Source of the DNA: Propionibacteriaceae bacterium
Lineage (GTDB): Bacteria > Actinomycetota > Actinomycetes > Propionibacteriales > Propionibacteriaceae
Direction: 5' to 3'
Assembly (NCBI GenBank): GCA_031267295.1
Contig: JAIRZI010000045.1
Location: 1 to 35,869 of the forward strand
DNA length: 35,869 bases
Shown here piece by piece: positions 1,737-27,567 of this stretch (the first letter of the stretch is position 1; each line of letters begins with the position of its first letter). Made by a program: the position numbers and the translations under genes. Under the pieces are notes generated by a model, which saw only the letters and a program-made list of their open reading frames with translations, was not told the DNA's origin and made no database searches.

Positions 1737-1979
1737 CGTTTGGTGGCTGATATTCGTCGAATCATGGCAGAGTATCGTGATGGTGAAAGGATCGAGGCCA
1801 ACGCGGTTAAAAGTTCCGCTGCCATGGTGGATGCCAACTTAACCAACGATTCTCTGCTAGTCACCCAAAGTAGTTGCGCGGAGTTCGTCCAATATTTTGC
1901 CGAGACGAATCCTGCGTTAATTTTTTATATAGGGTGGCTTTGGTTGGGTGTTTTGTTCACGAGAGTATAGGAGAAAGTG

Positions 1980-5063: not shown

Positions 5064-8000
5064 ATGTCTTTACGCGCGCCGACAGGTGGCGTGGCTGTGG
5101 ACTCCACAGTCACACGCCATCAGCATCCTACGCCGTCTTTGCCCGAACCGGGGCAGGTAGTTGAGGTACGCGGCTCGACATGGGCGGTCGCTGGAGTCAC
5201 AGCGCAGGGGTTGCCGGTGTCTCCGGCGGATGATTCGACGGTCGGTTTATCGCATGTGGTCGATCTGCAGTCGATGGACGAGGATCGTTTGGGTGAGATG
5301 CTGTCGGTGGTGTGGGAGTTGGAGGTTGGGAACTCGATTACTCCGGCACAGGGTCTGCCTGATCGAATCACCGACCAGGGGTTCGACGATCCGGTGACGT
5401 TGGCGGGGTTCATTGACGCGATGCGGTGGGGCGCGGTCACCTCGGCTGATCCGAACCGCTACCAGGCTCCATTCTGGTCAGGCGTGAATGTAAATGCGTA
5501 CCAATTGGAACCGCTGCACCGCGCATTGTCGTCACCTCGCGCGAATCTGCTGTTGGCTGATGACGTGGGTCTGGGGAAGACTATCGAGGCCGGGCTTGTT
5601 GTCCAGGAACTCTTACTGCGCCACCGGGCGCGGACGGTCGTGATTGTCTGTCCGCCGAGTTTGAGCATGAAGTGGGCCGACGAGATGCGGGACAAGTTTG
5701 GCTTGGGATTCGTTATCGTCAACTCCGAACTGATGTCGTCGATCCGCCGCAGCCACGGGTTGAATGCGAACCCGTTCACGTTGTTCCCGCGTGTGATCGT
5801 GTCAATGGCTTGGCTGCCTCAGAACCGCGCTCAACGCCTGCTGCGCCCGGTTTACGCTGAGGTCGACAATCCGAAATCGGGCCGCCGGTTCGCGTTTGAT
5901 ATCTTGATCGTTGATGAAGCCCACCATGTCGCACCATCATCCCCGTTGACCGTCGCACAGGGGCGGGGCTACGCCACAGACACGAACCGCACTGTCGAGG
6001 TGCGCCGTCTGGCCGAACGTTGCGAGCACCGCCTGTTCCTTTCGGCGACTCCGCACAACGGCCATCCAGAGTCGTTCATGGCACTGATGGAGATGATCGA
6101 TCCGCAGCGCTTCTCGCGCGGCGCATTGCTCGACAGTGTCGCGCTGAAGGATGTTATGGTGCGCAACCTCAAACGCGACTTGACCGATAAGGGGTTCAAA
6201 CGCCGCCAGGTCAAGTCGTTGGTGTTCACCCCGTCCGATCAAGAGCAAGTCATGTTCTCTGCCCTAGATGAAATCGTGCGCGCGTCGGCTAAACTGAACG
6301 ACGCTAAACCGGGTAGCGACATTGTGACGATGCTGTTGAAAAAGCGGTTTATGTCCAGCCCCTACGCCTTCGGCCAGACCTTGGCGCGCTACATGAACTC
6401 CCGCGACGGCTCCGGCCTGATCGATGACGATTACGACGACATTCTGGGCGAGGGCCAGTCCGACGAGGAAGAGGGCCTGTGGGAGCAGGATGAGTCGGAG
6501 TATCTGAAAATGTCGAAACGCTCCGGCTCCGACCCACTGCGATCCGCCACCCGCGAGCAGCTTGAACAGCTGCGAGATTGGGGATTGGGCTACGAGTCGA
6601 AAACTGATTCCCGAGCCGAGGCGCTGCTGGGCTTCCTTGACTCGGTGTGTCGCCCAGACGGCAAGATGTGGACGAATGAGCGGGTGGTCGTGTTCACCGA
6701 GTACGCCCACACCGTGGATTGGCTGGCGAGAATTCTGCGGCAACGCGACTACACGGACAGAATGGCTGTGATTCAGGGTTCGACACCGACGGGCAAGCAG
6801 CCCGGCGAGCGGGGGTATATTCGCGAGCAGTTCACCGAGAATCCGGTGGAGCAACCGGTCAGGGTATTGCTAGCGACTGACGCTGCCGGAGAGGGCATTG
6901 ACCTGCAAGACTACTGTCATCGGCTCGTCAACTTCGACATTCCGTTCAACCCATCCCGATTGGAGCAGCGCATCGGTCGAATCGACCGTTACGGCCAAAC
7001 TCAGGCTCCGCTAGTGTTTCACTTCCTGCCCGACCAAACGTCGTCAACCTATGCGGCGGACACGGCGTTCATGGGCGGTATCGCCCGGAAGATCGCCAAT
7101 GTCGAGCAAGACCTCGGCTCAACCAATGAGGTCATCGCCGACCAGATCCAGCGCCACTTCACCGGCGGCAAAGTCCCGACAAAACCAAAGGCTAGAGGCA
7201 ACAACTCTAACGATGTCATCAATCAGAACCTGGCGAGCGGCTTAGAGTTGAACGCCCGTTTGACTGAGTTGGAGCAGGGCTACGACGAGTCGCGTTCCCA
7301 GATTCACCTAGAGCCGGACAACCTTCGCCGTGTGGTCGACACCGCGTTGCGGATCAATAACCAGCTACCGCTGGTGCCCATCGCCGACCCATTCATCCCC
7401 TACGACCCTGACGGAGATGTGAAGCCCGCCGACACCCAGGTTTTCGAGGTGCCAAACCTGACCCTAGGTTGGCAGGTCGCACTGCGGGGTCTCGACATAG
7501 TTCTCAAACCAGGCGAGCGCCGACCTATTACATTCGATCCGGCAGCGATGGAGATCCGCGAACCCGACGGGGCGGGCGGAGTAACCGTCCGGCGGCGCAA
7601 CGATTTGGCCTACGTCCACCTTGGCCATCCGCTCGTCCAGAAAGCTCAACGTTTGCTGCGCCGCTCCTTGTGGAACGTTGGCTCGTCGCTGAACCGGGTG
7701 ACCGCAGTTGTCGTGGACGATTTGCCGGAGTCGTTCGTCGCCGCTGTCACGCGGATGGTGCTGGTCGGCAGGGGCGGTGTCCGGCTACATGAAGACGTGT
7801 TCCTTGCCGGAGTTCGTTTGCACGGCCGCCGAGTCATGGACGAAGACAAAGCCGAGGGTGCCCTCGATCAGGCTCTCGACACGGGCAACCTGGCTTTAGC
7901 CGACGAGCGCGTACGGCAGCAGATCGCCGCGATGTGGAACGCGCCGGATGCGCCGATCAAGGCTCGGCTCGAAAGCCGCATACAGACTCTCGCCGCACGC

Positions 8001-8345
8001 AAACACAAAGCGGTGCAGAGCCTGCTCGACAAGCGCCACGAGTCCGACGTGAAGCGCGCCCATGACATCTTCGCTGCGTTCCGCGAGAACCTGCGCCAGT
8101 CGCTGCGGCAACTCGAAGATGCACAAGCCGAGGAGGAAGCCCGGCTTTTCCTCGACCCAGACCAGCAGCGACAGCGACGGCGGGACATGGAGGCCATGAG
8201 TCGCCGCCTGGACGAGCTCGCCTCCGAGGAGGATCGAGAAATCACCGCGATCAACGAGCGCTACACCCAGCCTGAGCCGAACACCACAGCAGCGGCTTTG
8301 GTGTTTGCCCTGACCCGCGCCGACGCCGAAGGATGGATCGACTGA
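5064..8345 (+). CDS. drmD: DISARM SNF2-family helicase DrmD
   Basis: This 1093-residue SNF2-type ATPase has Walker A DDVGLGKTIEAG near residue 162, the DEAH box IVDEAHH near 282, motif III FLSATPHNGH, and the C-terminal lobe with VVVFTEYAHT, TDAAGEGIDLQ near 604 and RIGRIDRYGQ near 636. The N-terminus (GQVVEVRGSTWAV) and the long Glu/Arg-rich, coiled-coil-like C-terminus agree with DrmD of Class 1 DISARM. In that system DrmD works with DrmA, DrmB, DrmC and the adenine methyltransferase to restrict incoming phage DNA; its exact step is not established. It heads the operon and overlaps drmMI. The ATG at 5064 has no Shine-Dalgarno sequence, but a TAGACT box lies 7 nt upstream, so the start is plausible if the mRNA is leaderless. 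Confidence 0.9.
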   Translation: MSLRAPTGGVAVDSTVTRHQHPTPSLPEPGQVVEVRGSTWAVAGVTAQGLPVSPADDSTVGLSHVVDLQSMDEDRLGEMLSVVWELEVGNSITPAQGLPDRITDQGFDDPVTLAGFIDAMRWGAVTSADPNRYQAPFWSGVNVNAYQLEPLHRALSSPRANLLLADDVGLGKTIEAGLVVQELLLRHRARTVVIVCPPSLSMKWADEMRDKFGLGFVIVNSELMSSIRRSHGLNANPFTLFPRVIVSMAWLPQNRAQRLLRPVYAEVDNPKSGRRFAFDILIVDEAHHVAPSSPLTVAQGRGYATDTNRTVEVRRLAERCEHRLFLSATPHNGHPESFMALMEMIDPQRFSRGALLDSVALKDVMVRNLKRDLTDKGFKRRQVKSLVFTPSDQEQVMFSALDEIVRASAKLNDAKPGSDIVTMLLKKRFMSSPYAFGQTLARYMNSRDGSGLIDDDYDDILGEGQSDEEEGLWEQDESEYLKMSKRSGSDPLRSATREQLEQLRDWGLGYESKTDSRAEALLGFLDSVCRPDGKMWTNERVVVFTEYAHTVDWLARILRQRDYTDRMAVIQGSTPTGKQPGERGYIREQFTENPVEQPVRVLLATDAAGEGIDLQDYCHRLVNFDIPFNPSRLEQRIGRIDRYGQTQAPLVFHFLPDQTSSTYAADTAFMGGIARKIANVEQDLGSTNEVIADQIQRHFTGGKVPTKPKARGNNSNDVINQNLASGLELNARLTELEQGYDESRSQIHLEPDNLRRVVDTALRINNQLPLVPIADPFIPYDPDGDVKPADTQVFEVPNLTLGWQVALRGLDIVLKPGERRPITFDPAAMEIREPDGAGGVTVRRRNDLAYVHLGHPLVQKAQRLLRRSLWNVGSSLNRVTAVVVDDLPESFVAAVTRMVLVGRGGVRLHEDVFLAGVRLHGRRVMDEDKAEGALDQALDTGNLALADERVRQQIAAMWNAPDAPIKARLESRIQTLAARKHKAVQSLLDKRHESDVKRAHDIFAAFRENLRQSLRQLEDAQAEEEARLFLDPDQQRQRRRDMEAMSRRLDELASEEDREITAINERYTQPEPNTTAAALVFALTRADAEGWID

Positions 8346-11300
8346 TGTTTCACCGCCCGCATCAACGCCGCGCCCTCAACGCCACCGAACAACACCGCGC
8401 TTGGCTCCAACTTGTCGACACCGATGGCCCGTTCCTCGCCGTGCCTGTCCTTAAACGGGTCTGGCCAGACGGCATACCCAATTTCGCCACCATCCATCCC
8501 GAGCGCTACGACCTGCTACATGACAAGTTCAAGACGTTCGGTGCGGCTTTCGATGCTGTCGATGCCGAACCCGAATCCGAAGAGCTTCAAGCCAGCTATC
8601 GACAGACCCGTGACCAGTGGGTCGAGACGGTGCTGCGGGCCGTGGTCGGTTGGGGCGATACGCTCGACTGGGGCGAAACGACGGGCATCCGGGCCACATC
8701 CCCGAACCGGGCTGTAACCATCCACTCCCAGGGCGTGCTGCGCGGCGCGGATGGTATCGGCGCGCTCGTCCATATCGTCGAACGCACCGTCAGCCTCCGC
8801 TCCACCCCCGCCGACCTATGGGCCACGACGCCCATCGACCGGATGGATGCCTTGCTGCGCGCCTCCGGCGTTCCCATCGGCATCGTTACCGACGGCCAAT
8901 GGTGGGGTCTAGTCTGCTCTCGCGAAAGCAGAATGACCGCATCCGGCATCGTCGACGCGCTGACCTGGATTTCCGAGCCGCGCACCCGTGATGCTTTCTT
9001 CACCTTGCTTGATCGGCAGTACATCATCGGAGGCGACCCTGACGAGCTTCTGCCGGAACTGTTCAAGGCATCTGAGACTGAGGCTGAGGAGACCACCGAA
9101 GCGCTGGGGGCGCAGGTTCGCAGCGCCGTTGAACTGCTCATCCAAGCGTTCGCCGAAGCCGCCGTCGAGGCCAAGCGTCGTGGCCAGGGCGACTCGCTGC
9201 CAGACGATCCGCACGCCACCTACGAGGCTGCGGTCACGGTGATGATGCGGGTCGTGTTCTTGCTGTTCGCGGAGGAGCGCGGTCTGCTGCCGTCCGGCGA
9301 CCTATTCGACCAGGGCTACGGCATCGCCCAAGAACTAGCCCGGCTCGAAACCCGCGAAGCCGCTGAGAGTGAGGAGATACTCGACTCCACCACCTTAACC
9401 TGGCACCGGTTGCTCGCCACCAGCCAAGCGCTCTACACCGGTGCGTCGTTCGAGAATCTGCGCATGCCCGCCTACGGTGGCTCCCTATTCGACCCGACCA
9501 GGTTCCCTTTCCTCAACGCCACCACCGAGCAAGGCAGCCTCGCCGTCGCCGTCTCTGACCGCGTCATGCTCCATGTCCTACGCTCTGTCCAGCTTGTCAA
9601 GGTCGGAGGCGAGTCCAGACACATCTCTTTTCGCGACATCGACGTGGAACAAATCGGCTACATCTACGAAGGTTTGCTTGGCTTCACTTGCCGCACCGTC
9701 GGTGAGGTTTACGTTGGCCTGCAAGGCACAGCAGGAGCTGAACCTGATATTCCGCTCGCCAGACTCGAAACACTGCGCGCCGAGAACCCAACCCCCGCCG
9801 CGTTCGCCGATGCCCTGCGCGCCTGGCTGGTCACCGACCAGCCATCAACCAAACCCAAGTCCGCGTCCGCCATTGCCCGCGCCTTGGACGCGCTGCCCGA
9901 CCCGATCATCGTCAGCGCCCTCACTCAGGCCGTCGGCGGCGACACCGACCTGCGCGCCCAGATTGAGCCATGGCTCGGGCTGATTCGCCCCGATTTGCGC
10001 AACCAACCCTTCATCGTCCTGCCTGGCGGGCTACTCGTCAAAGAAACCCCGTCGCGCAAGAACGCCGGAGCGCATTACACGCCCCGCTCTTTGGCCGAGG
10101 AAGTCGTCCTTCATGCGCTCCAGCCGCTTTGCTATTCGCCCGGCCCCTACCAAAGCGCTGACGAAAGCAGATGGGTGCTCAAGGGCTCCGTTGACATCCT
10201 GCGATTACGGATCGCCGACATCGCCTGCGGCTCCGGCGCATTCCTTGTCGCCGCCGCCCGCTACCTCGCCGACCGAATGGTCGAAGCCTGGACTATTGAA
10301 GACCCCTCGAATACCTACCACCGCGACCTCTACAGCCGAGCCATCCGCCAGGTCGTCGCCAAATGTCTCTACGGAGCCGACATCAATGGCATGGCCGTCG
10401 AGATGTGCAAACTATCGCTGTGGTTGGTTTCCCTCAACCCGAAATTGCCTTTCAGCTTCGTCGACGACAAAGTGTTGCACGGCAACTCCCTACTCGGCCT
10501 GACCGACCTTGACCAAATCCGCGAACTCCACATCTACCCGGCGGATGCCCGCAGCAACGGCGACCGGGATGCCCTGTTCTACACCAGCGCCGGGCGCATG
10601 ATGACCCAGCGGATCGACGTCAACGGTGTCATCTCCCGCGTCGCTGAACGTCGCCAACAACTCGCCAGCGAAGTCTCCGAAACCGACCCGGCGCGCACTG
10701 CGACCGCCAAGCGCCGCATCATGGCCGATAACGAACGCGACCTCGTCCAACTGACGACCCTCGCTGATGCCGTCGTGGCTGCCGGACTGCCCCTCGGCGC
10801 GCCCCGAGGCCGCGACAAGGAAACAACCCGCCCCGAGGTCGACCCAGACGGCAACGCCCGCTTCGTCGTCGAACACACCCCCGATGCGAAGCTCCAGACC
10901 AAATACAAGGCGTTGGCCGAGACCGCCAGCGTCGCCTTCCCCAAGAATGGCGACGGAGACCGTTCCGAAATTCTGCGCCTCATCGACACCGGCCTCACTC
11001 CCACCGTCGAAACGGACTATGACCACTGGCGATGCCTACATTGGGTTCTCGCAGTTCCCGACGTGATGGAACGTGGCGGCTTCAATGCCATCATCGGAAA
11101 CCCGCCGTTCTTGGGCGGACAGAAGCTGACCGGGGCTATGGGCACTGATGTGCGCGACTGGTTTGTCAACGTGCTGGCAGAGGGCCGCAGAGGAAGCGCC
11201 GACCTGGTGGCCTACTTCTTCTTGCGTGCCACCTCGCTCTTGCAAGCGAATGGGACTTTGGGGTTGATTGCCACGAATACTGTTGCGCAGGGCGATACTC

Positions 11301-12463
11301 GGGAAGTTGGTCTTGATGCGATGGTTGCGGAGGGGTTCACTATCACCCGCGCTATTCAGTCAAGGTCTTGGCCTGCTGCGAGTGCCAACCTTGAATATGC
11401 TGCCGTCTGGGGTACTCGCGCTGCTGTCGCCGACGCAGTGTCGAGAGTGGCCGACGACAGTCCGGTACGACGCATCAGCACCCTACTCGAACCAGCTGGA
11501 CGAGTCGAAGGTAATCCAGTCAGGTTGGCCGAGAACACAGGCATCGCCTTCCAAGGTTGCATCGTCCTTGGTATGGGATTCGTCATCGAGCCAGAGTTGG
11601 CACATGAGTGGATTGCCGCTGATGCACGCAACGCTGAGGTGTTGCTCCCCTACCTGAACGGTGAGGATTTGAACTCCCGCCCGGATGCCTCGGCATCCCG
11701 GTGGGTCATCGATTTCAACGACCGCAGCGAGGAGGAAGCTGCTAAGTACGAGTTGCCCTATGCGCGCACTTTGGAACTGGTCAAGCCAGAACGGCAACGG
11801 TTGAATGCGGAGGGGTCTTTCGTGCTGCGGAGACCACTACCGGAGCGCTGGTGGCAATACGGAGAGAAGAGACCGGCCATGCGGCAGGCTATCGCCGCTT
11901 TGTCGGAGGTGTTGGTCATCGCGCTTGTCAGCAAGACGGTCATGCCTGTTCGGGTTCCAACGGGACAGGTCTTCAGCCACGCCCTCGGGGTGTTCGCCTC
12001 GGATGACTACAGTGACCAGGCAGTCTTGTCATCAAGCCTGCATCAGGCTTGGGCAATCACTTACGGTTCGGGGATGCGCAACGACCCGCGTTACACGCCA
12101 TCAGATGTGTTCGAGACCTTCGCTCGCCCCGCCGCGACCGGGAGACTTGAGAGTGTCGGGCAGATTCTCGATAGCGAACGGCGGACAATCATGGTTCGCC
12201 GGAATCTGGGCTTGACCAGCCTCTACAACATGGTGAGTGATCCCGACATTACTTCAAGCGGCGACCATGACATCGCTCGACTGCGCGACATACACGTCGA
12301 ACTCGATGACGCAGTCTTGGATGCCTACGGTTGGTCAGACATTGACCTGCAGCGGGGTTTCCATGTCTTCAGACAGATGCGGCGATGGACTGTAAGCCCG
12401 GCCGCTCGAATCGAAATTCTGGGTCGTCTTTTGGAAGAGAACCACCACAGAGGTGATCGATGA
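8345..12463 (+). CDS. drmMI: DISARM class 1 N6-adenine DNA methyltransferase DrmMI (expressed copy, switchable 3' end)
   Basis: This large Type IIG/PglX-like adenine methyltransferase has AdoMet motif I (ADIACGSGAFLVAA, about residue 620) and catalytic motif IV NPPF (IIGNPPFLGG, about 920). Residues after ~1000 form the presumed target-recognition part. In DISARM this enzyme marks host DNA so that the restriction proteins spare it. The ATG at 8345 overlaps the drmD stop by one base (TGATG), suggesting translational coupling; the in-frame ATG at 8333, used in the ORF track, is possible. Codons ~1092-1128 (numbered from 8333) are the left arm of a perfect 111-bp inverted repeat. The ~248 codons beyond it have a diverged, inverted alternative at 12482-13330. 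The gene therefore looks like the active face of an inversion switch. Its end lies 18 bp from the stop of the silent cassette. Confidence 0.9.
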   Translation: MFHRPHQRRALNATEQHRAWLQLVDTDGPFLAVPVLKRVWPDGIPNFATIHPERYDLLHDKFKTFGAAFDAVDAEPESEELQASYRQTRDQWVETVLRAVVGWGDTLDWGETTGIRATSPNRAVTIHSQGVLRGADGIGALVHIVERTVSLRSTPADLWATTPIDRMDALLRASGVPIGIVTDGQWWGLVCSRESRMTASGIVDALTWISEPRTRDAFFTLLDRQYIIGGDPDELLPELFKASETEAEETTEALGAQVRSAVELLIQAFAEAAVEAKRRGQGDSLPDDPHATYEAAVTVMMRVVFLLFAEERGLLPSGDLFDQGYGIAQELARLETREAAESEEILDSTTLTWHRLLATSQALYTGASFENLRMPAYGGSLFDPTRFPFLNATTEQGSLAVAVSDRVMLHVLRSVQLVKVGGESRHISFRDIDVEQIGYIYEGLLGFTCRTVGEVYVGLQGTAGAEPDIPLARLETLRAENPTPAAFADALRAWLVTDQPSTKPKSASAIARALDALPDPIIVSALTQAVGGDTDLRAQIEPWLGLIRPDLRNQPFIVLPGGLLVKETPSRKNAGAHYTPRSLAEEVVLHALQPLCYSPGPYQSADESRWVLKGSVDILRLRIADIACGSGAFLVAAARYLADRMVEAWTIEDPSNTYHRDLYSRAIRQVVAKCLYGADINGMAVEMCKLSLWLVSLNPKLPFSFVDDKVLHGNSLLGLTDLDQIRELHIYPADARSNGDRDALFYTSAGRMMTQRIDVNGVISRVAERRQQLASEVSETDPARTATAKRRIMADNERDLVQLTTLADAVVAAGLPLGAPRGRDKETTRPEVDPDGNARFVVEHTPDAKLQTKYKALAETASVAFPKNGDGDRSEILRLIDTGLTPTVETDYDHWRCLHWVLAVPDVMERGGFNAIIGNPPFLGGQKLTGAMGTDVRDWFVNVLAEGRRGSADLVAYFFLRATSLLQANGTLGLIATNTVAQGDTREVGLDAMVAEGFTITRAIQSRSWPAASANLEYAAVWGTRAAVADAVSRVADDSPVRRISTLLEPAGRVEGNPVRLAENTGIAFQGCIVLGMGFVIEPELAHEWIAADARNAEVLLPYLNGEDLNSRPDASASRWVIDFNDRSEEEAAKYELPYARTLELVKPERQRLNAEGSFVLRRPLPERWWQYGEKRPAMRQAIAALSEVLVIALVSKTVMPVRVPTGQVFSHALGVFASDDYSDQAVLSSSLHQAWAITYGSGMRNDPRYTPSDVFETFARPAATGRLESVGQILDSERRTIMVRRNLGLTSLYNMVSDPDITSSGDHDIARLRDIHVELDDAVLDAYGWSDIDLQRGFHVFRQMRRWTVSPAARIEILGRLLEENHHRGDR
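11606..11716 (+). repeat. 111-bp inverted repeat, left arm (inside drmMI)
   Basis: By direct reading, these 111 bases are identical to the reverse complement of 13220-13330. Identity breaks at both edges: TGAGTGG against GGAGTGG at the start, and GATTTCA against GATTTCG at the end. The arm is exactly 37 codons and lies in the same frame in drmMI and in the silent cassette, so a crossover anywhere within it keeps the reading frame. Confidence 0.97.
11676..11705 (+). other. Candidate serine-recombinase crossover site in drmMI
   Basis: A 14-bp left arm (CCCGCCCGGATGCC) and a 14-bp right arm (GGCATCCCGGTGGG) match as inverted repeats at 12 of 14 positions around a central TC. Serine recombinases bind imperfect palindromes and exchange strands at a central 2-bp overlap. 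A non-palindromic overlap such as TC fixes orientation, so two inverted sites give inversion. The site sits inside the 111-bp repeat. Function is inferred from this organisation and from the adjacent recombinase gene. Confidence 0.55.
11989..12070 (+). repeat. 82-bp inverted repeat, left arm (inside drmMI)
   Basis: A second perfect match to the silent cassette: 11989-12070 equals the reverse complement of 12887-12968. It encodes VFASDDYSDQAVLSSSLHQA and a few more residues, in frame in both copies. The sequence between this block and the 111-bp repeat is much more diverged, so the identity is a local block, not uniform similarity. It contains the palindrome AAGCCTG-CAT-CAGGCTT. Confidence 0.95.
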
Positions 12464-12481
12464 GACACATCCCACGGCGGC

Positions 12482-13342
12482 CTACGAGTTTTGCTTTCCG
12501 TTAGCACGATGATGGTTCTCCTCAAGCAGACGGTCGAGTATCTCCAGCATGACTGCCTCGGAACAAGCCCAACGTCGCGCGCCTCGATATGAATAGAATC
12601 CGTAGTCAAGGCGGAGGTCGCCCCAACCATAGGAAGCGACGACAGCCTCGTCTAACTCTCTATGAATGGCACGAAGGTGCGCTACGTCTGCGTCGGCTGC
12701 GTCTAGCACATCCGGATCGTTGACCAAGTTGTAAAGCTTGGTGAGGCCGAGGGATCGCCGGAGCATGATCTCTTGCCTCGTACCGTCCAGGGTGGCTCCA
12801 ACAGTGCCCAAGCCGACCGTTGACCGTGGGCGAGGGAACGTCTCGAAGACATCGGATGGGGTGTAGCGCACCCTGGTCTCTAACGTCGAACCGTAAGTGA
12901 TTGCCCAAGCCTGATGCAGGCTTGATGACAAGACTGCCTGGTCACTGTAGTCATCCGAGGCGAACACCACGCAGGCATCGCTGAGTACTTGCCCAGTGGG
13001 TACCCGCAGAGGCATGACAGTCTTGCTGACACGCGCGATGACCAACACCTCCGACAAGTCTGCAATCGCTCTGCGCATCGCTGGAGCCCACGCCGCAAAG
13101 AGCCACCAGTTTTCGCGGCGATAGTCGATAGAGACTTTGTCCCGCTGCGGCTTGACATAGTGCAATACTCGGTGGAACGGGAGTAGATACTTAGCCGCTT
13201 CCTCTCGACTCTTCGTGCCGAAATCGATGACCCACCGGGATGCCGAGGCATCCGGGCGGGAGTTCAAATCCTCACCGTTCAGGTAGGGGAGCAACACCTC
13301 AGCGTTGCGTGCATCAGCGGCAATCCACTCCTGCGCCGGCAA
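12482..13342 (-). CDS. Silent alternative C-terminal cassette of drmMI
   Basis: This open frame reads toward drmMI, tail to tail, and its 282 residues from EWIAADARNAEVLL onward parallel the DrmMI C-terminus throughout. Residues 5-41 are identical through the 111-bp repeat, followed by a diverged section, the identical VFASDDYSDQAV block, another diverged section, and a shared RLLEENHHR near the end. The track's start is a TTG just outside the repeat with no ribosome binding site, and there is no methyltransferase catalytic domain, so it is unlikely to be translated alone. Inversion between the 111-bp arms would join it in frame to the DrmMI body, giving a protein of about 1373 residues against 1376 now, counted from 8333. 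The divergent parts probably confer a different DNA recognition specificity; this is inferred from the Type IIG/PglX layout. Confidence 0.85.
   Translation of the reverse strand: MPAQEWIAADARNAEVLLPYLNGEDLNSRPDASASRWVIDFGTKSREEAAKYLLPFHRVLHYVKPQRDKVSIDYRRENWWLFAAWAPAMRRAIADLSEVLVIARVSKTVMPLRVPTGQVLSDACVVFASDDYSDQAVLSSSLHQAWAITYGSTLETRVRYTPSDVFETFPRPRSTVGLGTVGATLDGTRQEIMLRRSLGLTKLYNLVNDPDVLDAADADVAHLRAIHRELDEAVVASYGWGDLRLDYGFYSYRGARRWACSEAVMLEILDRLLEENHHRANGKQNS
12887..12968 (-). repeat. 82-bp inverted repeat, right arm (in the silent cassette)
   Basis: Exact reverse complement of 11989-12070. It could serve homologous recombination or gene conversion between the active and silent copies, producing chimeric C-termini in addition to the whole-cassette swap. 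Confidence 0.95.
13220..13330 (-). repeat. 111-bp inverted repeat, right arm (start of the silent cassette)
   Basis: Exact reverse complement of 11606-11716, checked base by base. The recombinase start codon lies about 43 bp beyond its outer edge. Any recombinase promoter in the outer part of the repeat or in the following 40 bp therefore stays with the gene in both orientations. Confidence 0.97.
13231..13260 (-). other. Candidate serine-recombinase crossover site in the silent cassette
   Basis: Inverted copy of the 30-bp imperfect palindrome at 11676-11705. On the plus strand its central dinucleotide is GA (13245-13246), i.e. TC on the minus strand, so the two sites face each other. Exchange between them would invert the ~1.55 kb from 11691 to 13245. 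Confidence 0.55.
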
Positions 13343-13372
13343 ATGGCAGTTGTAGGGTCAGCATTGTTAAGC

Positions 13373-14695
13373 ATGAACCTAATGAAACAAGTCTGTCGGT
13401 GTGTCCTGTACGCTCGGCTCAGTGTCACCAAAGAAGAATCCGTCTCCATTGCCCGGCAGCTTCAATCCTGTCGCAGCTACGCTCAGGCGCGCGGCTGGGA
13501 AGTCGTTGGTGAGTTTGTTGACGACGGCGTGTCCGCGACAGCGAATCGTCCCGAGGAACGCAAGGGTTGGGCGGCGCTCTTGGCCACAGGCGGCTTTGAT
13601 GCCGTCGTGATTTGGAAAGTGGATCGACTCGCCCGGCGTGTTCTCGACTTCCTGCACGCCGACGAAGCCCTCCAGAGGCGCGGCGCTGGCCTAGTCGCAG
13701 TGGAAGACCCTATTGATATGACCAGCCCCCAGGGTCGGGCTTTCGCCGTCATGCTGGCCGTGTTTGGCGAGATGGAGGCCGAGGCGATGCGGGCGCGAGT
13801 GCGCGCAGCTCGTTCGGCGTTGCTCAAGGTTGGGCGCTGGCCGGGCGGTGGCATCCCGTTCGGTTATCTGTCGGTAGCGAACCCCGATGGGCCGGGACGG
13901 GTGCTCGCGAAGGATGCCGAGCGTATCCACTGGCTGGCTGAGGTGGCGGCGATGGCCTTGTGCGGCGAGGCTGTCAATGCCATCGCCCGATGGCTGACAA
14001 CCGAGGGCGCACCAGTCCCAGGAGAACGCAAAGTGAGTCAGAGCGATCCCATCTGGAACCGGCAGACAGTCTATGGTCTGTTGCGCAACCCCATCCTGGC
14101 TGGGATGCGACCCCACAATCCCGGTCGAGGCAGGCAGGGCGCACGAGTCGACCCGTTCTCTGTCGTCCGTGACGATGTTGGCGTGCCTGTCATCGATGAA
14201 TCGCTAGCAGTTATCACTTTAGATGAATTCACCCAGCTTCAGCAGCTGCTCGATTCCCGTGACCTGCCGCAGGCTCGGAAGCATGGCGAACGGGTGACGA
14301 CCAGTCCGTTCCTCTCCTGTGTGGCTCGCTGCGATGATTGTGACGTGTTTTTGTGCCGGGGTACTAATCAGGGTAGGCCTGTTTTGTCGTGTCCGCAGTG
14401 CCGTCAGACTATAGGTCGTACTGCTCTCGATCCGTACCTTGCTGAACGTCTACTTACCGAACGTGGTGGTGAGCCGCTTGGCGATTCTACTGTCCGAGAT
14501 TGCTGGAATGTTGTCAAGTACAACGAGTCCGCCAAGCGTGACATTCTTCTGACTCAGCTTGATTTCCTGTATATCCGCCGAGGTGTGGTGGGTCGCTACT
14601 TCGATGAGGAGCGCATCATCCTGGCTTGGCGCAGATCTGCCGATCCTGCGCATTCTGGCATCGGCGACGGAAACTGTCATACCTGGCTGGAATAA
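13373..14695 (+). CDS. Serine recombinase (compact large serine recombinase), probable drmMI invertase
   Basis: The N-terminal resolvase domain carries the catalytic serine motif VLYARLS, then SIARQLQSC, VIWKVDRLAR with the conserved Arg residues, and FGEMEAEAMRARV at the start of the long helix. A Recombinase-type DNA-binding domain follows (GIPFGY, then VYGLLRNPILAG). A zinc ribbon follows that (CVARCDDC, then CPQC), and finally a ~90-residue tail. About 440 residues is at the short end for large serine recombinases, but all parts are present. The start is taken at 13373 (MNLMKQVC), since the longer track start at 13343 adds only low-complexity residues; 13382 is also possible. None has a good Shine-Dalgarno sequence. 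Lying between drmMI and drmA and next to inverted copies of the drmMI 3' end, it most likely catalyses inversion. An integrase role for the whole island is the alternative. Confidence 0.85.
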   Translation: MNLMKQVCRCVLYARLSVTKEESVSIARQLQSCRSYAQARGWEVVGEFVDDGVSATANRPEERKGWAALLATGGFDAVVIWKVDRLARRVLDFLHADEALQRRGAGLVAVEDPIDMTSPQGRAFAVMLAVFGEMEAEAMRARVRAARSALLKVGRWPGGGIPFGYLSVANPDGPGRVLAKDAERIHWLAEVAAMALCGEAVNAIARWLTTEGAPVPGERKVSQSDPIWNRQTVYGLLRNPILAGMRPHNPGRGRQGARVDPFSVVRDDVGVPVIDESLAVITLDEFTQLQQLLDSRDLPQARKHGERVTTSPFLSCVARCDDCDVFLCRGTNQGRPVLSCPQCRQTIGRTALDPYLAERLLTERGGEPLGDSTVRDCWNVVKYNESAKRDILLTQLDFLYIRRGVVGRYFDEERIILAWRRSADPAHSGIGDGNCHTWLE

Positions 14696-14721: not shown

Positions 14722-15045
14722 GTGAACTTGCCAGACAGAGTCAGCGCCGAGGCGGGCGAGCGGGGTGCGGGTGTGTCTTCTGGGTCTGGAGGTGAAGCGG
14801 TGAGAAAGCGCGAGTACTACGAGTTGGAAGCGGCGCGGAACGGGTGGACGGGTCGGGAGTTGGAGCGGCAGGTCGACTCGATGTTGTTTGAGCGGGTGTT
14901 ATTGTCGCAGGACAGGAAATCGGTTATGGAGATGGCTCGGCGGGAGCGTCTACCTGAACGTCCAGCCGAGTTGAAGCGCGAGATCAAGGCGGTCGAAGAG
15001 CAACAGGCCGATGCCGAACAGGAAAGCGAGAGTGAAAATGACTGA
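14722..15045 (+). CDS. Truncated DUF1016_N (YhcG-like) protein
   Basis: This 107-residue ORF starts with GTG, preceded by an AGAGG box at 6 nt. Its middle (REYYELEAARNGWTGRELER, then SMLFERVLLSQDR) resembles the DUF1016 N-terminal domain of YhcG-family proteins, which are normally ~350 residues and end in a PD-(D/E)XK nuclease domain. Here the family's first ~100 residues and the whole nuclease domain are missing, replaced by a Glu-rich tail ending ESESEND. The stop overlaps the drmA start region (ATG at 15038), so it may be translated and coupled to drmA. It could be a stump left by past recombination or a small adapted accessory protein. It is not a standard DISARM component as far as I know. 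Confidence 0.55.
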   Translation: MNLPDRVSAEAGERGAGVSSGSGGEAVRKREYYELEAARNGWTGRELERQVDSMLFERVLLSQDRKSVMEMARRERLPERPAELKREIKAVEEQQADAEQESESEND

Positions 15046-18000
15046 AACCGTAACACCACCAACCGCACCCGGCTATCAACTCGGCTATCCGTTGGATGGT
15101 ACCTCGTATGCGGTGCGGGAAAATTTCGTCGACATTCTCGGCAGGGAGCTTGTCGGGCCGATGAACGGTTCTGAGGAGGTCGTGCTACTGAGCCCGCGCC
15201 AGCTCTATTTAGCGGGATATCTGGCTCCGGTGAAGGTGGTAGAGACATCCGCCGAAACCGAAACCGAAACCGGACGAGATGATGACGGCAATCTGGTCGA
15301 GATGCTAGCCGATCCGGGAGCGCGGGCTGCGGGTCGTGGCGTACCGGTCGCCATAGTCGATTCCTCAGACGCTGATGATGAAGACGATGATGCCGAAGAT
15401 CGCGCACCAAAGTCTGGGTTGATGGCGGCATCGTCGATGGGGTTGCGGTTCCAAATTGGTATGGACGTGGAGTCTTTTCAGGTGACGGCATCATGGGGGT
15501 TGTACGAATCGGTGGCGACGGACAAGATATCGAAGTCGGGCCATCCGATTCGTCATTACAAGCGCACACCCATTGAAGAGCCACGCACCATCAAAGTTGC
15601 CGACTTACAGCTGGGTGTGACAAAGACGGTGCCGTTGCGTGATGCGGCGGTGTTGCGCATTGACCGGTACGACGACGCGGAACACGGTCGGCGGCTGATC
15701 GAAATCGCTTTGTGTAACGACCGGGAGACGCCGTTGCCAATCCCGTTGGGAATGTGGATGTGGCAAACGGGTATGCGGGTAGACGCTTGGGGCGCTGAGG
15801 TGTTCCTGCCGGTGCGCGACATGCTGGAGCAAGACTGGCAGGAACACGACGAAGAGGTCAGGCGACTGAATCTTCAGTACCGCGACAGGCTGGAGTTCGC
15901 GGTCGGACGGACGTGTTCGGTGGACTGGGTAGTCAAGGCTGGTTCGCGGCGAGCAACAGAGGTGTCTACGACGTGGGTGCCGACGGCGGAGACGCCGCAG
16001 ACTTTGGCCGGGTCGGTTGAGGGAGCACTGCTGAGCATGGATGCTTTGTCGGCAGCGGATGCGCAGGCTGTCAAGGCTGGATTAGCCCCATTGGTGGACG
16101 GCTACGGAGCGTGGCTTGATGTTCAGGAGTCCGCCGCAAAGAACCTGCCGCCATGGCTGGCCGAGACCGCCGATCTGGCGTTGTGGGAGGCGCGGCGCGC
16201 ACACCAGCGACTGGTGGACGGTTTGGAGTTCTTGGGGTCAGATGTGGAGGCGCTGCGGTGTTTCCAGTTTATGAACCGGGTCATGCGCGACCAGCGGGTC
16301 GCGTCGCAGGTAGCTGGGGAACGGGCGGGCAACCCGTCGGTATCGATCCAGCAGGCTCGTGACCAGGTGCTAACCGACAGTTCTGGGAATCAGGTGGCAG
16401 CTTGGCGTCCATTCCAGTTAGCGTTCATCCTGATGCAGCTTCGGGCGTTGACCGACCCGGCGGCGACTTTACGGAGCGCCGAGCACCAGGCGCAGGTCGA
16501 GTTGCTGTTCTTCCCGACCGGTGGCGGTAAGACCGAGGCGTATCTGGGGTTGGCTGCGTACACGTTCGCCATCCGCCGTCGCCAGGGCGTGATCAAGTTG
16601 GCAGACGATTCATTGGATGGGTTGGATGGCGTGTCGGTGTTGATGCGGTACACGTTGCGGTTGTTGACGGCGCAGCAGTTCCAGCGGGCGACGGCGTTGG
16701 TGTGCGCGGCAGAGTTGGCTCGCCGGGAGGATGAAGCGATGTGGGGTTCGACGCCGTTCCGAATCGGCTTATGGGTGGGCACAGATGTGTCCCCGAAGCA
16801 GTTCGAGGAGGCGAAGGAACAGCTCGATCGGGTCAATGACCATGGCGGCTATCGGCTACCGGTGTTACAGATCAAGCGCTGCCCGTGGTGTGGCACGCCG
16901 ATCACTCCGGCGCAAGTGAAGACCGACAAAACCATGCGGCGGGTCTATGTGTATTGCGGCGACGATCTGGCACGCTGCCCGTTCTCCAAAGGCGGCGGCA
17001 TCGTGGAAGGTCTGCCGGTGTTGACGGTGGACGAGGAGATATACCGACTGACCCCAGTGTTCGTGATTGCTACGGTCGATAAGTTCGCCCGACTGGCTCG
17101 GGAGGGTCATGCGGCATCGTTGTTCGGCTACGTGTCGAAGAAGTGTGGCAGACACGGCTACGTCCACCCGGACTACTTGGGTTGCACCATCACCACCCAG
17201 CACCAAGCCGAGGATGGCCATCCGAAGGCAACCATTACCCCAGTGAAGCGTCTGCGTCCGCCTGATTTGATTATCCAGGACGAGTTGCACCTGATCACGG
17301 GGGCTTTGGGCACATCGGTTGGTTTGTTCGAGGTCGCAGTCGAGACATTGTGTTCTTGGGAGGCTTCGGATGGCCAGCCGGTCAGGCCGCTGATCGTGGC
17401 ATCAACGGCGACAGTACGAAACGCCCGTGAACAGGTGCGCGGCTTGTATGGCCGGGCGGTGTCGATCTTCCCGCCACAGGTGTTGGACGTGGCCGACACG
17501 TATTTCTCCCGCGAGATGCCGGTAAACCGAGATCATCCGGGTCGCCGCTATGTCGGCATATCGGCTTATGGGGTGCGGCTGACGGCGGCTGAAATCCGGG
17601 TCGCCGAGACTCTGTTGGAGAGCGGGCAGTTGTTGTTCGACCAGGTGGGAGCGGTTGCGGATCCGTACATGACGTTGGTGGGCTATTTCAACGCAACCCG
17701 CGAGTTGGCCGGTATGCGTCGGTTCATTGACGACGACGTGTCCAGCCGAGTGAAACGTCCACGGCTTGGCTCTGGCTTCTCGCCCAGGCGAGGCGCATTC
17801 CCGAACGGCATTCTAGGAGTCGAGGAGTTGACCAGTCGGAATGACTCAGACCGGATCGCAAACGTGTTGAACCTGCTCGGCTTGGCGTTTGACCCGGACT
17901 ACGACACGACTACCGCCTATCAAGATCGGATGGCTCGCATTAAAGCTAAAGAGAAGGTGCCGCAGCGCAAAGAGAAAGACTCTCCGTTCGATGTGGTGCT

Positions 18001-18778
18001 GGCCACGTCGATGCTGCAAGTCGGTGTGGATGTGCCCCGGCTCGGCTTGATGCTGGTGGTTGGCCAGCCGAAGAACACCGCCGAGTACATCCAGGCATCC
18101 TCCCGCGTGGGCCGCGACACCGGCAGGGGTGTCGAGCGTGATAAGCCCGGCCTAGTGGTTACGCTAGCCAACTGGGCCAGACCGCGCGACCTGGTGCATT
18201 TTGAGCAGTTCCGCCACTACCACGACACGTTCTACGCCCAAGTTGAAGCGTTATCGGTCACACCGTACTCACCGACGTCGCTGGAACGCGGCATTGACGG
18301 GCTACTAGTATCGACCGTCAGGGTGCTGCAGGCTCCGCTTGACTACGGCCTATCACCGGAACGCAACGCCGGGCGGATTGCCGCGCAGCATGACGTGATC
18401 GCCAAGGCTGTGGAGCGGTTGAAGGCTCGAATCGCCACCGCAGCGCTAGACGACAAGGCCACCAGGCAGGCGTCCGACGCGCTGGCCAACCGACTCGACC
18501 GGTGGGCCGAGCGCGCCAGACACGCCGCCGCGATGAGCCAAGCGCTGGTGTATGAGCGGGTCGGCGGCACGGGGCAATTCCTGTCATTGATTGTATCGCC
18601 GGAGAATTTGCGGGCAGCCAGCGGGATGGGAGACCGAGCTCCGTTCGTCGTCGCCAACTCGATGCGCGAGGTGCAGCCTGAGATCAACGTACTCGTCTCA
18701 CCGCTACCCGACCGCATGTTCACCAGCACCCCCGGCGGCGTCGCCGGATGGACGTTGCCCGCCGAAGGAGATGACTGA
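15038..18778 (+). CDS. drmA: DISARM helicase DrmA
   Basis: The ATG at 15038 overlaps the upstream stop and is preferred over the track start at 15011, giving 1246 residues. Features in order: an N-terminal domain with SGLMAASSMGLRFQIG, typical of DrmA; Walker A FFPTGGGKTEAYLGLAAYT near residue 495; a Cys cluster (CPWCGTP, then CGDDLARCPF) probably binding zinc; a DEAH-like box QDELHLI near 747; motif III STATVRNA; and the second RecA lobe with ATSMLQVGVDVPRLGLM near 988 and QASSRVGRD. DrmA forms a complex with DrmB that loads on DNA with 5' single-stranded ends and is central to restriction by DISARM. It contains a CCGAAA hexamer repeated three times (15252-15269, in frame). Its separation from drmMI by the inversion module is unusual, since Class 1 loci usually run directly from one core gene to the next. 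Confidence 0.9.
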   Translation: MTETVTPPTAPGYQLGYPLDGTSYAVRENFVDILGRELVGPMNGSEEVVLLSPRQLYLAGYLAPVKVVETSAETETETGRDDDGNLVEMLADPGARAAGRGVPVAIVDSSDADDEDDDAEDRAPKSGLMAASSMGLRFQIGMDVESFQVTASWGLYESVATDKISKSGHPIRHYKRTPIEEPRTIKVADLQLGVTKTVPLRDAAVLRIDRYDDAEHGRRLIEIALCNDRETPLPIPLGMWMWQTGMRVDAWGAEVFLPVRDMLEQDWQEHDEEVRRLNLQYRDRLEFAVGRTCSVDWVVKAGSRRATEVSTTWVPTAETPQTLAGSVEGALLSMDALSAADAQAVKAGLAPLVDGYGAWLDVQESAAKNLPPWLAETADLALWEARRAHQRLVDGLEFLGSDVEALRCFQFMNRVMRDQRVASQVAGERAGNPSVSIQQARDQVLTDSSGNQVAAWRPFQLAFILMQLRALTDPAATLRSAEHQAQVELLFFPTGGGKTEAYLGLAAYTFAIRRRQGVIKLADDSLDGLDGVSVLMRYTLRLLTAQQFQRATALVCAAELARREDEAMWGSTPFRIGLWVGTDVSPKQFEEAKEQLDRVNDHGGYRLPVLQIKRCPWCGTPITPAQVKTDKTMRRVYVYCGDDLARCPFSKGGGIVEGLPVLTVDEEIYRLTPVFVIATVDKFARLAREGHAASLFGYVSKKCGRHGYVHPDYLGCTITTQHQAEDGHPKATITPVKRLRPPDLIIQDELHLITGALGTSVGLFEVAVETLCSWEASDGQPVRPLIVASTATVRNAREQVRGLYGRAVSIFPPQVLDVADTYFSREMPVNRDHPGRRYVGISAYGVRLTAAEIRVAETLLESGQLLFDQVGAVADPYMTLVGYFNATRELAGMRRFIDDDVSSRVKRPRLGSGFSPRRGAFPNGILGVEELTSRNDSDRIANVLNLLGLAFDPDYDTTTAYQDRMARIKAKEKVPQRKEKDSPFDVVLATSMLQVGVDVPRLGLMLVVGQPKNTAEYIQASSRVGRDTGRGVERDKPGLVVTLANWARPRDLVHFEQFRHYHDTFYAQVEALSVTPYSPTSLERGIDGLLVSTVRVLQAPLDYGLSPERNAGRIAAQHDVIAKAVERLKARIATAALDDKATRQASDALANRLDRWAERARHAAAMSQALVYERVGGTGQFLSLIVSPENLRAASGMGDRAPFVVANSMREVQPEINVLVSPLPDRMFTSTPGGVAGWTLPAEGDD

Positions 18779-18780
18779 CC

Positions 18781-20853
18781 ATGACTATGACCGAGACCAT
18801 GACCGAGACCATCGCTGCTTTCGAAGCGCCCGTCATGTTGGAAGATACCCAAACCCTCGACCCGCTGGCCGATGCCGAAGAAGCCAACGCCAAGAACCGT
18901 GCTAAGGTCGGCACCGCCCGTCCCTCGTCGCTGCTCTACACGTACGGGCCAGGGTCGATTATGGATTTGCCGAACTTCTCAGTCATGCCCGCCGGATTGG
19001 ACGACTGGGAGCCGATCTGGAGATGTCGCTCCCAGATTCCAGTCATCGCTGAACCGCGCCTGCTGGACGTGGTGCGCCTCCACCTAGGGCCGCAGGTGGA
19101 CTCACTGCGCCCCTATCCGTGGCAACCATCCCGTGGGTTCGGCACCCAGGAAGGCTCCGACCTGGGCATCCCAGCCAGAGTGTTCCCGCAATGGCTGCGC
19201 TGCACCGGCTGCGACTACCTCGGCCCGCTTCCCCGGTTCACATATGAGAACACCCACCCGTTCCGGCCTGACCGAGCTGAGTTCACTCACACCGGCTGCC
19301 CTGGTCGTAGCGGGCAAAGCTTCGGAAAGCGCAAAAGTTCCGCCGTCCCGACTCCGCATCTACTGACCTGCACCAACGGGCATCTGGACGAGTTTCCCTA
19401 CGCGCTGTGGGTTCACAACGGCCTGCCGTGCCCGAACACCGATCCGGGCGTGATCCCTGACTTGAAGATGCGCGACGCGAATCTGGGAAAGTCTGTCGGC
19501 TCCACTATTAGCTGCGGAGCCTGCGGCGCGAAGCGCGGCATGGCCGAAGCCCAAGGTGAGGTTGGCAAGCAGAAACTTCCCCAAACCTGCCGTGGGCGAC
19601 ATCCGCACTTGGGCGCGTTCGATCCAAGCTGCGACGCCAAGCCGACGCTGATCATGATGGGCGCGTCCAACCTGTGGTTTCCGTCCACCCAGTCGGTTAT
19701 CGTCATGCCGCGCACAGATGCGAACAAGACCGAAGCCATCGCTGACCATCTGCGAGCCGAACTGGGTCTGGACTCGCTCCGGCAGTTCGGCGACCAAATT
19801 GCCGTCATTCGTGCGCTCGCGGCTGCCCGAAGCATCGACCTGATCGGCGTGACCGATGCGGATATCCATGCGATTGTCGCTGATGCGCTCAAACCGGCAG
19901 ATTCCGTTGAGGAACGGATGGAGAAGCTCGCCCGCTGGGATCCGGTAGAACTTCTCGTCTCCGAATGGGACTACCTGCAACGCCCAACCCTGTTCGCTCA
20001 GCAGGAGAACTCGTCTGGGCTGATGGTCACCGAGATGCCGCTCGGCGACAGCTTGCGTCCCGGAATCACACGGGTTGTCGCGGTGAACAAGATGAAGAAG
20101 ATCAACGCCGTTCTCGGCTTCACCCGCCTTGACGAAATGGATCGGGCGGGCGACCTCGCTTCCCGGCTGGTCAAGCTCACCAGGGATCGCAAGCCCCGCT
20201 GGGTGCCCGCCACCGAGGACCGGGGCGAAGGCATCTTCCTGCAACTCGACCTCAACGCTGTGGAGGCTTGGGAGCGGCAGGTGCTCGGCTCAGCCTTATG
20301 GGAAGCCCACCGGGCGGCGCACTACCGCAACTTCAAGAACCGCTACTCTGAGACCGCCCAGTGGGTCAATCCCGACACCCGGCTGCCAAAGCCGCGCTAC
20401 TGGCTGCTCCACACTCTCGCGCACATCCTCATCCGCGAGATGGCGATGTTGTGTGGCTATGGGGCAGCGTCTTTGAGCGAGCGTATCTACGGCTGGAGCC
20501 AGTCTGCCAACCGTGCCGCCGCTGCCGGGCTACTGATCTGCACCACTGCGTCCGACTCAGAAGGGACTCTCGGCGGACTGGTCGCTCTGTCCGACCCGGT
20601 GCGGCTGCAAGGGATTGTTGAATCGGCGTTGCGCCGAGCCTGCCGCTGCTCATCTGACCCACTGTGCGCGACCCGAACCCCAGGTTCCAGCGAGGATTTC
20701 CTACACGGCGCGGCCTGCCATTGCTGCGCATTCGCGTCGGAGACCAGTTGCGAGCGCTCCAACCGGTTCCTTGATCGCCGCTTCCTGCTCGACCTGCCTC
20801 AACCAGTCGGCGAGCCAACCGTGCCCGGCTTCTTCGGGAGAATTTATGCCTGA
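18781..20853 (+). CDS. drmB: DISARM DUF1998 protein DrmB
   Basis: This 690-residue protein starts two bases after the drmA stop. The N-terminal RPSSLLYTYGPGSIMDLPN is typical of DrmB. Several Cys pairs follow (CTGCDYLG, CTNGHLDEF, CGACGAKRG). The C-terminal DUF1998 part has LLHTLAHILIREMAMLCGYG, ICTTASDSEGTLGGL, and Cys-rich CRCSSDPLC and CHCCAF, probably zinc-binding. DUF1998 is shared with the MrfA helicase-nuclease. DrmB partners DrmA in DNA binding and supports its ATPase. The first codons contain a duplicated 12-mer (ATGACCGAGACC at 18787 and 18799), giving MTMTETMTET with three in-frame ATGs, so the exact start is uncertain by a few codons. It overlaps drmC by 8 nt. Confidence 0.92.
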   Translation: MTMTETMTETIAAFEAPVMLEDTQTLDPLADAEEANAKNRAKVGTARPSSLLYTYGPGSIMDLPNFSVMPAGLDDWEPIWRCRSQIPVIAEPRLLDVVRLHLGPQVDSLRPYPWQPSRGFGTQEGSDLGIPARVFPQWLRCTGCDYLGPLPRFTYENTHPFRPDRAEFTHTGCPGRSGQSFGKRKSSAVPTPHLLTCTNGHLDEFPYALWVHNGLPCPNTDPGVIPDLKMRDANLGKSVGSTISCGACGAKRGMAEAQGEVGKQKLPQTCRGRHPHLGAFDPSCDAKPTLIMMGASNLWFPSTQSVIVMPRTDANKTEAIADHLRAELGLDSLRQFGDQIAVIRALAAARSIDLIGVTDADIHAIVADALKPADSVEERMEKLARWDPVELLVSEWDYLQRPTLFAQQENSSGLMVTEMPLGDSLRPGITRVVAVNKMKKINAVLGFTRLDEMDRAGDLASRLVKLTRDRKPRWVPATEDRGEGIFLQLDLNAVEAWERQVLGSALWEAHRAAHYRNFKNRYSETAQWVNPDTRLPKPRYWLLHTLAHILIREMAMLCGYGAASLSERIYGWSQSANRAAAAGLLICTTASDSEGTLGGLVALSDPVRLQGIVESALRRACRCSSDPLCATRTPGSSEDFLHGAACHCCAFASETSCERSNRFLDRRFLLDLPQPVGEPTVPGFFGRIYA

Positions 20854-21547
20854 CAATCCGTTCACCGCGCTCGGCGCGTACCTCACTTCGACCGAAGCCG
20901 AGGCTCTCGCCGTGCTCCTTGAGAACGGGCAGCACATCTCTCTTGCCGTCAACAGCGTCAACCAATCCCGGCGCGAGAAAGCCAAGAAGTTGCTGGCCGA
21001 CGCGGGTATCAGCCATACCGAACCCAGGTTTGCCGGGGCGGTATTACGCTCTGTCGTCGGAGCCAAGTCCGTTCTCCATGACCTAGTCCCAGTGTGGACG
21101 ATGCCCGGTAACGAGGCCGACACTGGACACTTGACCGGCGAGTTCTCCCGGCTCGTCCACAACGCTAGAATCTCAATCACCTGCGCCACCTACAACTTCG
21201 AGACCACCTCCCAGATGTGGGATGCCCTCAAACAAGCCGCCGAGCGGCTCGACATAGCCGTGACTGTCTATCTTGATGCCTCCGCCTCCGCTTCTGCCGC
21301 TGTCAAGACCCGGTTGGCTAAAGCGACGGTGTACCGGTCGTCCAACATCGCCGGGAAACTAATCCGTAGTCACGCCAAGTTCGTTATCATCGACCACACC
21401 CTCGTCCTACTCACCAGCGCCAACTTCTCCTGGTCGGCCGAGAACCGCAACATCGAGTTTGGTCTACTTGTCCATGATGCCACGCTCGCCACCAGTGTCG
21501 AATCCACGATGGTTTCCAAGCACGGCACCTTGTACGAAATTGTGTAG
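20846..21547 (+). CDS. drmC: DISARM phospholipase D-like protein DrmC
   Basis: The true start is the ATG at 20846 (MPDNPFTALGAYL), with GGGAG 5 nt upstream and an 8-nt overlap with drmB. The track's longer ORF from 20615 runs through drmB in another frame. The 233-residue product has one HKD-type motif, SHAKFVIIDHTLVLLTSANF, followed by NRNIEFGLL, as in PLD-family nucleases that dimerise to complete the active site. DrmC is a core DISARM gene but was reported as dispensable for protection in the system studied experimentally. It is the last gene of the operon and is followed by a stem-loop. Confidence 0.9.
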   Translation: MPDNPFTALGAYLTSTEAEALAVLLENGQHISLAVNSVNQSRREKAKKLLADAGISHTEPRFAGAVLRSVVGAKSVLHDLVPVWTMPGNEADTGHLTGEFSRLVHNARISITCATYNFETTSQMWDALKQAAERLDIAVTVYLDASASASAAVKTRLAKATVYRSSNIAGKLIRSHAKFVIIDHTLVLLTSANFSWSAENRNIEFGLLVHDATLATSVESTMVSKHGTLYEIV

Positions 21548-27299: not shown

Positions 27300-27540
27300 T
27301 TAACAGTGAGTTTCTCCCGCAACGTACCGCGAATATGCTTCTCACAAGCAATAAATAAACTTCAATAATACAAAGTTTAATAAATAAAATAAATGCGATA
27401 TAGCCGGGTTTTGTGCCGGAAAATGGGGATAATTGGAGTATGAAATAATCGCTAATAGTTGTATTATTAGTTCCTGCGTTCAATTATTTGCGCTTAGAAT
27501 TAAAGTTCCTGGGCGAAAGCGGCATAAGACCCTTCCTTCC
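27300..27540 (+). other. AT-rich intergenic leader of the surface-protein gene
   Basis: The 394-bp gap after eno holds the eno terminator and then a stretch (about 27320-27480) visibly richer in A/T than its surroundings, with runs such as AATAAATAAACTTCAATAAT. No gene is seen. It presumably contains the promoter of the SLH protein, but I cannot pick one box with confidence. The last ~100 bp before the gene returns to mixed composition and contains the start of the track's over-long ORF. Confidence 0.4.
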
Positions 27541-27567
27541 TCCCCGGAGCGGATTTTGGAGGGATTT

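Follow-up and report, generated by a model that had tools for sequence, protein, structure and literature searches.

Why should a bacterial defence operon keep, behind its methyltransferase gene, a reversed and start-less copy of that gene's own C-terminus together with a recombinase gene? The question is raised by a 35,869-nucleotide stretch of DNA from a Propionibacteriaceae bacterium (assembly GCA_031267295.1, contig JAIRZI010000045.1, positions 1 to 35,869), here called the window, which encodes a DISARM operon (defence island system associated with restriction-modification). A silent inverted cassette and a serine recombinase gene form an insert between drmMI and drmA of this operon, and we propose that the locus is very probably a recombinase-driven specificity switch of Class 1 DISARM. 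The components of the proposed switch are as follows.

8333..12463, plus strand: drmMI, adenine methyltransferase with a C-terminal MmeI-type target recognition domain, the active copy (1376 amino acids; PADLOC DrmMI 1608 bits)
12482..13342, minus strand: silent cassette, a start-less DrmMI C-terminal target recognition domain (286 codons; PADLOC DrmMI 397 bits; MmeI_TRD 36 bits)
13343..14695, plus strand: serine recombinase with Resolvase and Recombinase domains and a zinc ribbon (Pfam PF00239 and PF07508; YARLS and DRLARR catalytic motifs)

The active gene and the silent cassette lie tail to tail, with their stop codons 18 bp apart. The silent frame is open over all 286 codons and is 67% identical to the C-terminus of drmMI; upstream of the cassette the reading frame extends for just 5 codons, without an ATG or GTG start. 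In-frame inverted repeats join the two copies, in the arrangement of a site-specific inversion switch. The outer repeat (block C, 11606-11716 and 13220-13330) is perfect over 111 bp and 98% identical over 118 bp, is present in two copies in the whole 1.69-Mb, 97-contig genome, both of them at this locus, and cannot be chance. A second inverted repeat lies inside the recognition domain (11873-12070 and 12887-13084); its arms, each of 198 bp, are 86% identical and include two perfect stretches, one of 82 bp and one of 25 bp. Inversion at the 111-bp repeat in silico gives an in-frame DrmMI of 1373 amino acids, compared with 1376 for the resident protein. The adjacent site-specific recombinase is tied to the locus and has no other homologue in the host genome; its catalytic motifs are intact and are conserved in the orthologues. 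Judging from where similarity to these orthologues begins, its true start is probably at 13376 or 13385.

These results bear out most of the initial annotation, which had described the start-less inverted C-terminus, the perfect 111-bp repeat, the recombinase gene after the silent copy and the near-equal length of the inverted product. Its reading of the locus as a switch at one repeat stands as regards block C and the recombinase, but it overlooked two further blocks, D and E. With at least three crossover blocks, the locus is probably a combinatorial shuffler more than a two-state switch. The arms of the blocks are as follows.

11606..11716, plus strand: crossover block C, drmMI arm; perfect 111-bp inverted repeat, synonymous conservation z 9.2 in switching loci and about 0 in controls
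11903..11924, plus strand: crossover block D, drmMI arm, core TCGGAGGTGTTGGTCATCGCGC; synonymous conservation peak z 13.3
11989..12070, plus strand: crossover block E, drmMI arm, around CAGGCAGTCTTGTCATCAAGCCTG; 82-bp perfect inverted repeat, synonymous conservation peak z 11
12887..12968, minus strand: crossover block E, silent arm; 82-bp perfect inverted repeat
13033..13054, minus strand: crossover block D, silent arm; partner of 11903..11924
13220..13330, minus strand: crossover block C, silent arm; perfect 111-bp inverted repeat

Synonymous codons were compared in 11 loci with the serine-type switch against a codon-usage null, with non-switching drmMI genes as controls. In the switching genes, conservation peaks at residues 1093-1105 (block C, z 9.2), 1195-1203 (block D, z 13.3) and 1228-1237 (block E, z 11), with further peaks at residues 965-973 (z 9.9) and around residue 1015 (z 8). 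The controls show nothing significant at these positions, their significant values lying solely nearer the C-terminus. The exchangeable modules of the recognition domain are separated by blocks C, D and E. When inversions at all combinations of the three blocks were made in silico, 8 distinct open DrmMI products resulted (the resident of 1376 amino acids and 7 others), ranging from 1369 to 1380 amino acids. A TCTTG-type core common to all blocks, which visual inspection had suggested, was unsupported by counts and by a position weight matrix comparison.

We propose the following mechanism, in which three steps are inferred from the sequence: that the window recombinase acts on these blocks, that inversion still goes on in the strain and that the motif changes as a result. 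The serine recombinase would act on a block in drmMI and on its counterpart in the start-less silent copy, and would invert the segment that they enclose. Inversion at block C would trade the whole target recognition domain, whereas the inner blocks, D and E, would trade its middle and C-terminal parts only, such that from three usable blocks as many as eight full-length DrmMI proteins (1369-1380 amino acids) could result. Each variant would methylate a different motif; the self mark would change with it, as would the phage DNA that is taken as marked.

The same layout recurs in relatives, which were surveyed by tblastn on 80 related loci and by genome searches. At least 10 other actinobacterial DISARM loci possess the same inverted pair and an orthologous serine recombinase (about 63-80% identity), among them those of Microbacterium sp. 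5K110, Aeromicrobium sp. Leaf350, Lentzea waywayandensis, Cellulosimicrobium cellulans and several metagenome-assembled genomes. Neither an inverted copy nor a recombinase match was present in 66 of the 80 relatives, and same-genus genomes gave no detectable match to the cassette. In five Streptomyces and Nocardiopsis DISARM loci the inverted pair is followed, in the same slot, by an unrelated tyrosine recombinase of the Phage_integrase family; across 393 Streptomyces genomes this enzyme was found in 3, each time in DISARM and adjoining the inverted pair. Two unrelated recombinase families in one position form the pattern expected if inversion itself is selected. In one of the Streptomyces loci with the tyrosine enzyme (L145, 5651-7263), a 601-bp perfect inverted repeat covers most of the recognition domain. 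Another genome, which retains the switch, has drmA interrupted by about 1.5 kb (L126, 11103-16365). Two further loci (L037 and L123) have silent cassettes that lack the N-terminal part and keep just blocks D and E, so that only inner exchanges look possible there.

Comparison of these relatives shows that, in the course of evolution, modules have moved between the active and the silent position. Past the repeat, the active copy of Streptomyces tuirus (L094) is 87% identical to the silent copy of Streptomyces sp. LBL (L097); active-versus-silent identity between the two loci is 86-87%, compared with 43% for active versus active. The C-terminal modules of the serine group fall into the types GMRND, TLETRV and GAMKND. 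Each of the 10 scorable loci (10/10) has exactly one GMRND copy and one copy of another type (p = 0.0055 under random pairing), and the GMRND module is active in 4 loci, the window included, and silent in 6. A middle module of either type (ALVS...FSH or ARVS...SEA) combines with either C-terminal type, all four pairings being found, and the N-terminal module occurs with more than one middle type. N-terminal, middle and C-terminal modules thus pair freely, as expected of independent assortment. The comparison of orientation among related genomes, which the initial annotation had called for, accordingly reveals that which module is active differs between relatives; the opposite module orders are seen between related species, not within one strain.

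The ends of contigs, compared among contigs of at least 3 kb, are suggestive of two arrangements. Three isolates have drmMI and the recombinase gene on separate contigs that stop at the same base of a common repeat, of 63 nt in Nocardioides sp. Root240, 190 nt in Actinomadura chibensis (here within the last two bases) and 99 nt in Lentzea albidocapillata, and the recognition domains are absent from the contigs of this size in all three. In Granulicoccus phenolivorans a contig ends exactly at block D. Coincident ends of this kind are how an assembler behaves at a fork with two continuations. The contig ends in L041, L078 and L104 are without sign of a switch, or ambiguous.

Could the long repeats instead let ordinary homologous recombination or gene conversion reshuffle the silent copy, with the recombinase as a passenger? 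Repeats of 82-601 bp suffice in length for RecA, and homogenised stretches extend beyond the crossover blocks in some loci (106 bp in L064, 334 bp in L097). A passenger would also fit the one exception in our family search, a 52%-identical relative (L127, 8899-10437) inside an apparent pilus-type secretion ATPase gene, as expected of a mobile-element integrase; this placement suggests that the switch recombinase derives from such an integrase. However, the recombinase orthologues found with more than 60% identity are all in DISARM loci and in the same place, which in another lineage is filled by the unrelated tyrosine recombinase, and homologous recombination needs no codon-level conservation of short blocks across genera. 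We consider this explanation improbable. Elsewhere, neither the recombinase nor DrmMI had a relative in the viral contigs scanned; a 16-nt block E pattern had 7 isolated exact matches; searches of plasmids found solely distant serine recombinases (about 31% identity or less among the matches listed) and one DISARM plasmid, without the switch.

Several observations weigh against an active recombinase-driven switch. The window is present in one orientation only, with no inverted contig, and static repeats can yield contig ends such as those described above. Blocks C, D and E have no clear motif in common, though a single recombinase would lead one to expect it. The catalytic motifs are intact in 12 of the 14 recombinase orthologues checked, and in the two others the enzyme is broken, so that these loci may be locked. 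In one (L047, 12553-19502, which may be locked) the orthologue is split by about 5.7 kb, with residues 20-69 and 63-432 apart. In the other (L064, 11667-12586) it is degenerate and its catalytic region is missing; the middle modules of both copies are identical at this locus, as expected if switching stopped or conversion took over. The single orientation and the disrupted recombinases, together with the silent copies of L037 and L123 that lack an N-terminal part, would also suit a dead duplication, that is, an inverted copy which is a decaying remnant at a locus that no longer switches. Against such decay, the window combines an open silent frame, a perfect repeat and an intact recombinase. 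Silent copies are also under purifying selection as strong as that on active ones: the median ratio of nonsynonymous to synonymous substitution (dN/dS) among modules of the same type is 0.11 for silent-silent and 0.15 for active-active pairs, most of the dS values being close to saturation. A dead duplication is therefore, in our judgement, very unlikely.

The segment that would be swapped is, as the initial annotation had supposed, the part that reads the target. The Pfam MmeI_TRD domain matches DrmMI at residues 1083-1267 and the silent frame at residues 7-173 (30 and 35.8 bits; cut-off 27), and DrmMI further contains the Pfam domains MmeI_Mtase and Eco57I. An AlphaFold model of DrmMI residues 560-1376 (predicted local distance difference test, pLDDT, 89; predicted template-modelling score, pTM, 0.82) has DNA-bound MmeI (5hr4) as its best structural match, with Z 24.9 over 551 residues and about 19% structural identity, followed by CamA, M.BseCI and BrxX. 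Profile and model thus both place an MmeI-fold recognition domain in DrmMI. By profile alignment, MmeI positions 751, 773/774 and 806/808/810 correspond to DrmMI 1198, 1216/1217 and 1249/1251/1253. In MmeI, residues 751 and 773 read base pair 3, 774 and 810 read base pair 4, and 806 and 808 read base pair 6; with E-R at 806/808 the enzyme reads only C:G and with K-D only G:C, and base pair 3 changes from C:G to G:C when position 751 is R or K and 773 is D (PMC4833311). At 751/773/774 the active copy in the window has L-H-A and the silent copy R-D-A; at 806/808/810 they have R-D-R and E-R-R, respectively. In all 14 of the 14 switching loci tabulated, the two copies differ in at least one of these base-reading residues. 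As the swapped modules carry base-reading residues that differ, inversion should alter the methylation motif. By analogy with MmeI, inversion at block E should turn the base that follows the methylated adenine on its 3' side from G (R-D, K-D) to C (E-R) or back, where R-D is taken to read G:C as K-D does, and inversion at block D is predicted to change base pair 3. That the switch operates with no change of specificity, both versions methylating one motif, seems highly improbable: the assignment does depend on homology to MmeI, with which the structural identity is about 19%, but the versions differ at residues aligned to MmeI 751, 773, 806 and 808, where substitutions reportedly change the base that is read (PMC4833311).

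By NCBIfam and PADLOC profile matches, the host operon is Class 1 DISARM and is complete, containing the core genes drmA, drmB and drmC as well as drmD and drmMI, in the order drmD, drmMI, drmA, drmB, drmC. The DISARM identity given to the locus in the initial annotation is thereby upheld, as drmD, drmA and drmB score far above the curated cut-offs and drmMI and drmC are strong PADLOC matches. Besides drmMI, its genes are as follows.

5064..8345, plus strand: drmD, SNF2-like helicase (NCBIfam NF038317 DISARM_DrmD 1165 bits, cut-off 610)
15011..18778, plus strand: drmA, helicase (NF038325 DISARM_DrmAS 1327 bits, cut-off 950)
18781..20853, plus strand: drmB (NF038324 DrmB_fam 643 bits, cut-off 240)
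20846..21547, plus strand: drmC, phospholipase D-type nuclease (PADLOC DrmC 305 bits)

The locus does not belong to BREX (bacteriophage exclusion): the BREX-1 PglX model gives P0001 27 bits against a cut-off of 500, and PglZ had zero matches among the operon proteins scanned. Directly upstream of DISARM, a large superfamily 1 helicase (1977-4805; AAA_11/AAA_12 and DUF2726) resembles the MkoA/MkoC models and is probably a further defence gene of the same island. Just 3' of drmC, a DDE transposase gene on the minus strand (22010-23236) possibly represents the edge of the defence island. Further along, 27433-30996 encodes a large and likely cell-surface protein, which contains beta-helix repeats and S-layer homology domains.

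With less assurance than for the switch itself, we favour a broader model. DISARM systems of Actinomycetota would contain a multi-site specificity shuffler, in which three crossover blocks part modules that read different base pairs and give access to up to eight DNA marks; it would have originated at least two times, recruiting unrelated recombinases. A DISARM system able to alter its self mark would be a moving target, as the mark that a phage acquires in one sub-population would give it no protection in the next. At least some recombinase genes of defence islands would then have an evolutionary rationale, and the residue-level mapping on MmeI makes the change of motif a specific prediction. 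Switching would also raise the question of how a cell survives once its own genome suddenly lacks the newly required mark. From work on DrmAB it has been proposed that DNA structure is sensed together with methylation (PMC9142583), an idea that could be tested in a switching strain.

The initial annotation knew of no inversion switch for DISARM, and likewise we found no account of one in the open-licence literature searched; an earlier mention may exist outside it. Among other defence systems, inversion switches of BREX pglX are known. Phase variation of pglX in BREX is reported to be common (PMC11341690), and for pglX/brxX it also proceeds by a homopolymeric tract (PMC6326788). A switching methyltransferase gene in a defence system would be common to BREX and the window locus; however, BREX is the pglZ, brxC and brxL system, and the window operon is DISARM with drmA, drmB, drmC and drmD. 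Compared with Class 1 DISARM of the Ofir type, the window has all five genes in the same order, and typical relatives lack the inverted cassette and the recombinase. MmeI, a Type IIL restriction-modification enzyme, shares with DrmMI the methyltransferase and recognition-domain fold and the positions of the base-reading residues; it is, however, a stand-alone restriction enzyme, for which the literature consulted describes no switching. The hsdS genes of Type I systems are established cases of invertible specificity genes (PMC4190663, PMC4948785). In the pneumococcal SpnIII/SpnD39III system, as in the window, there are silent specificity half-domains and several inverted repeats, and recognition is combinatorial, with six forms (PMC4190663; PMC4948785), as we propose for DrmMI. 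The known recombinase of the pneumococcal hsdS locus is the tyrosine enzyme PsrA (PMC7096588), whereas that of the window is a serine enzyme; and in contrast to Type I hsdS, which encodes a separate specificity subunit, the recognition domain of the window DrmMI is fused to the methyltransferase.

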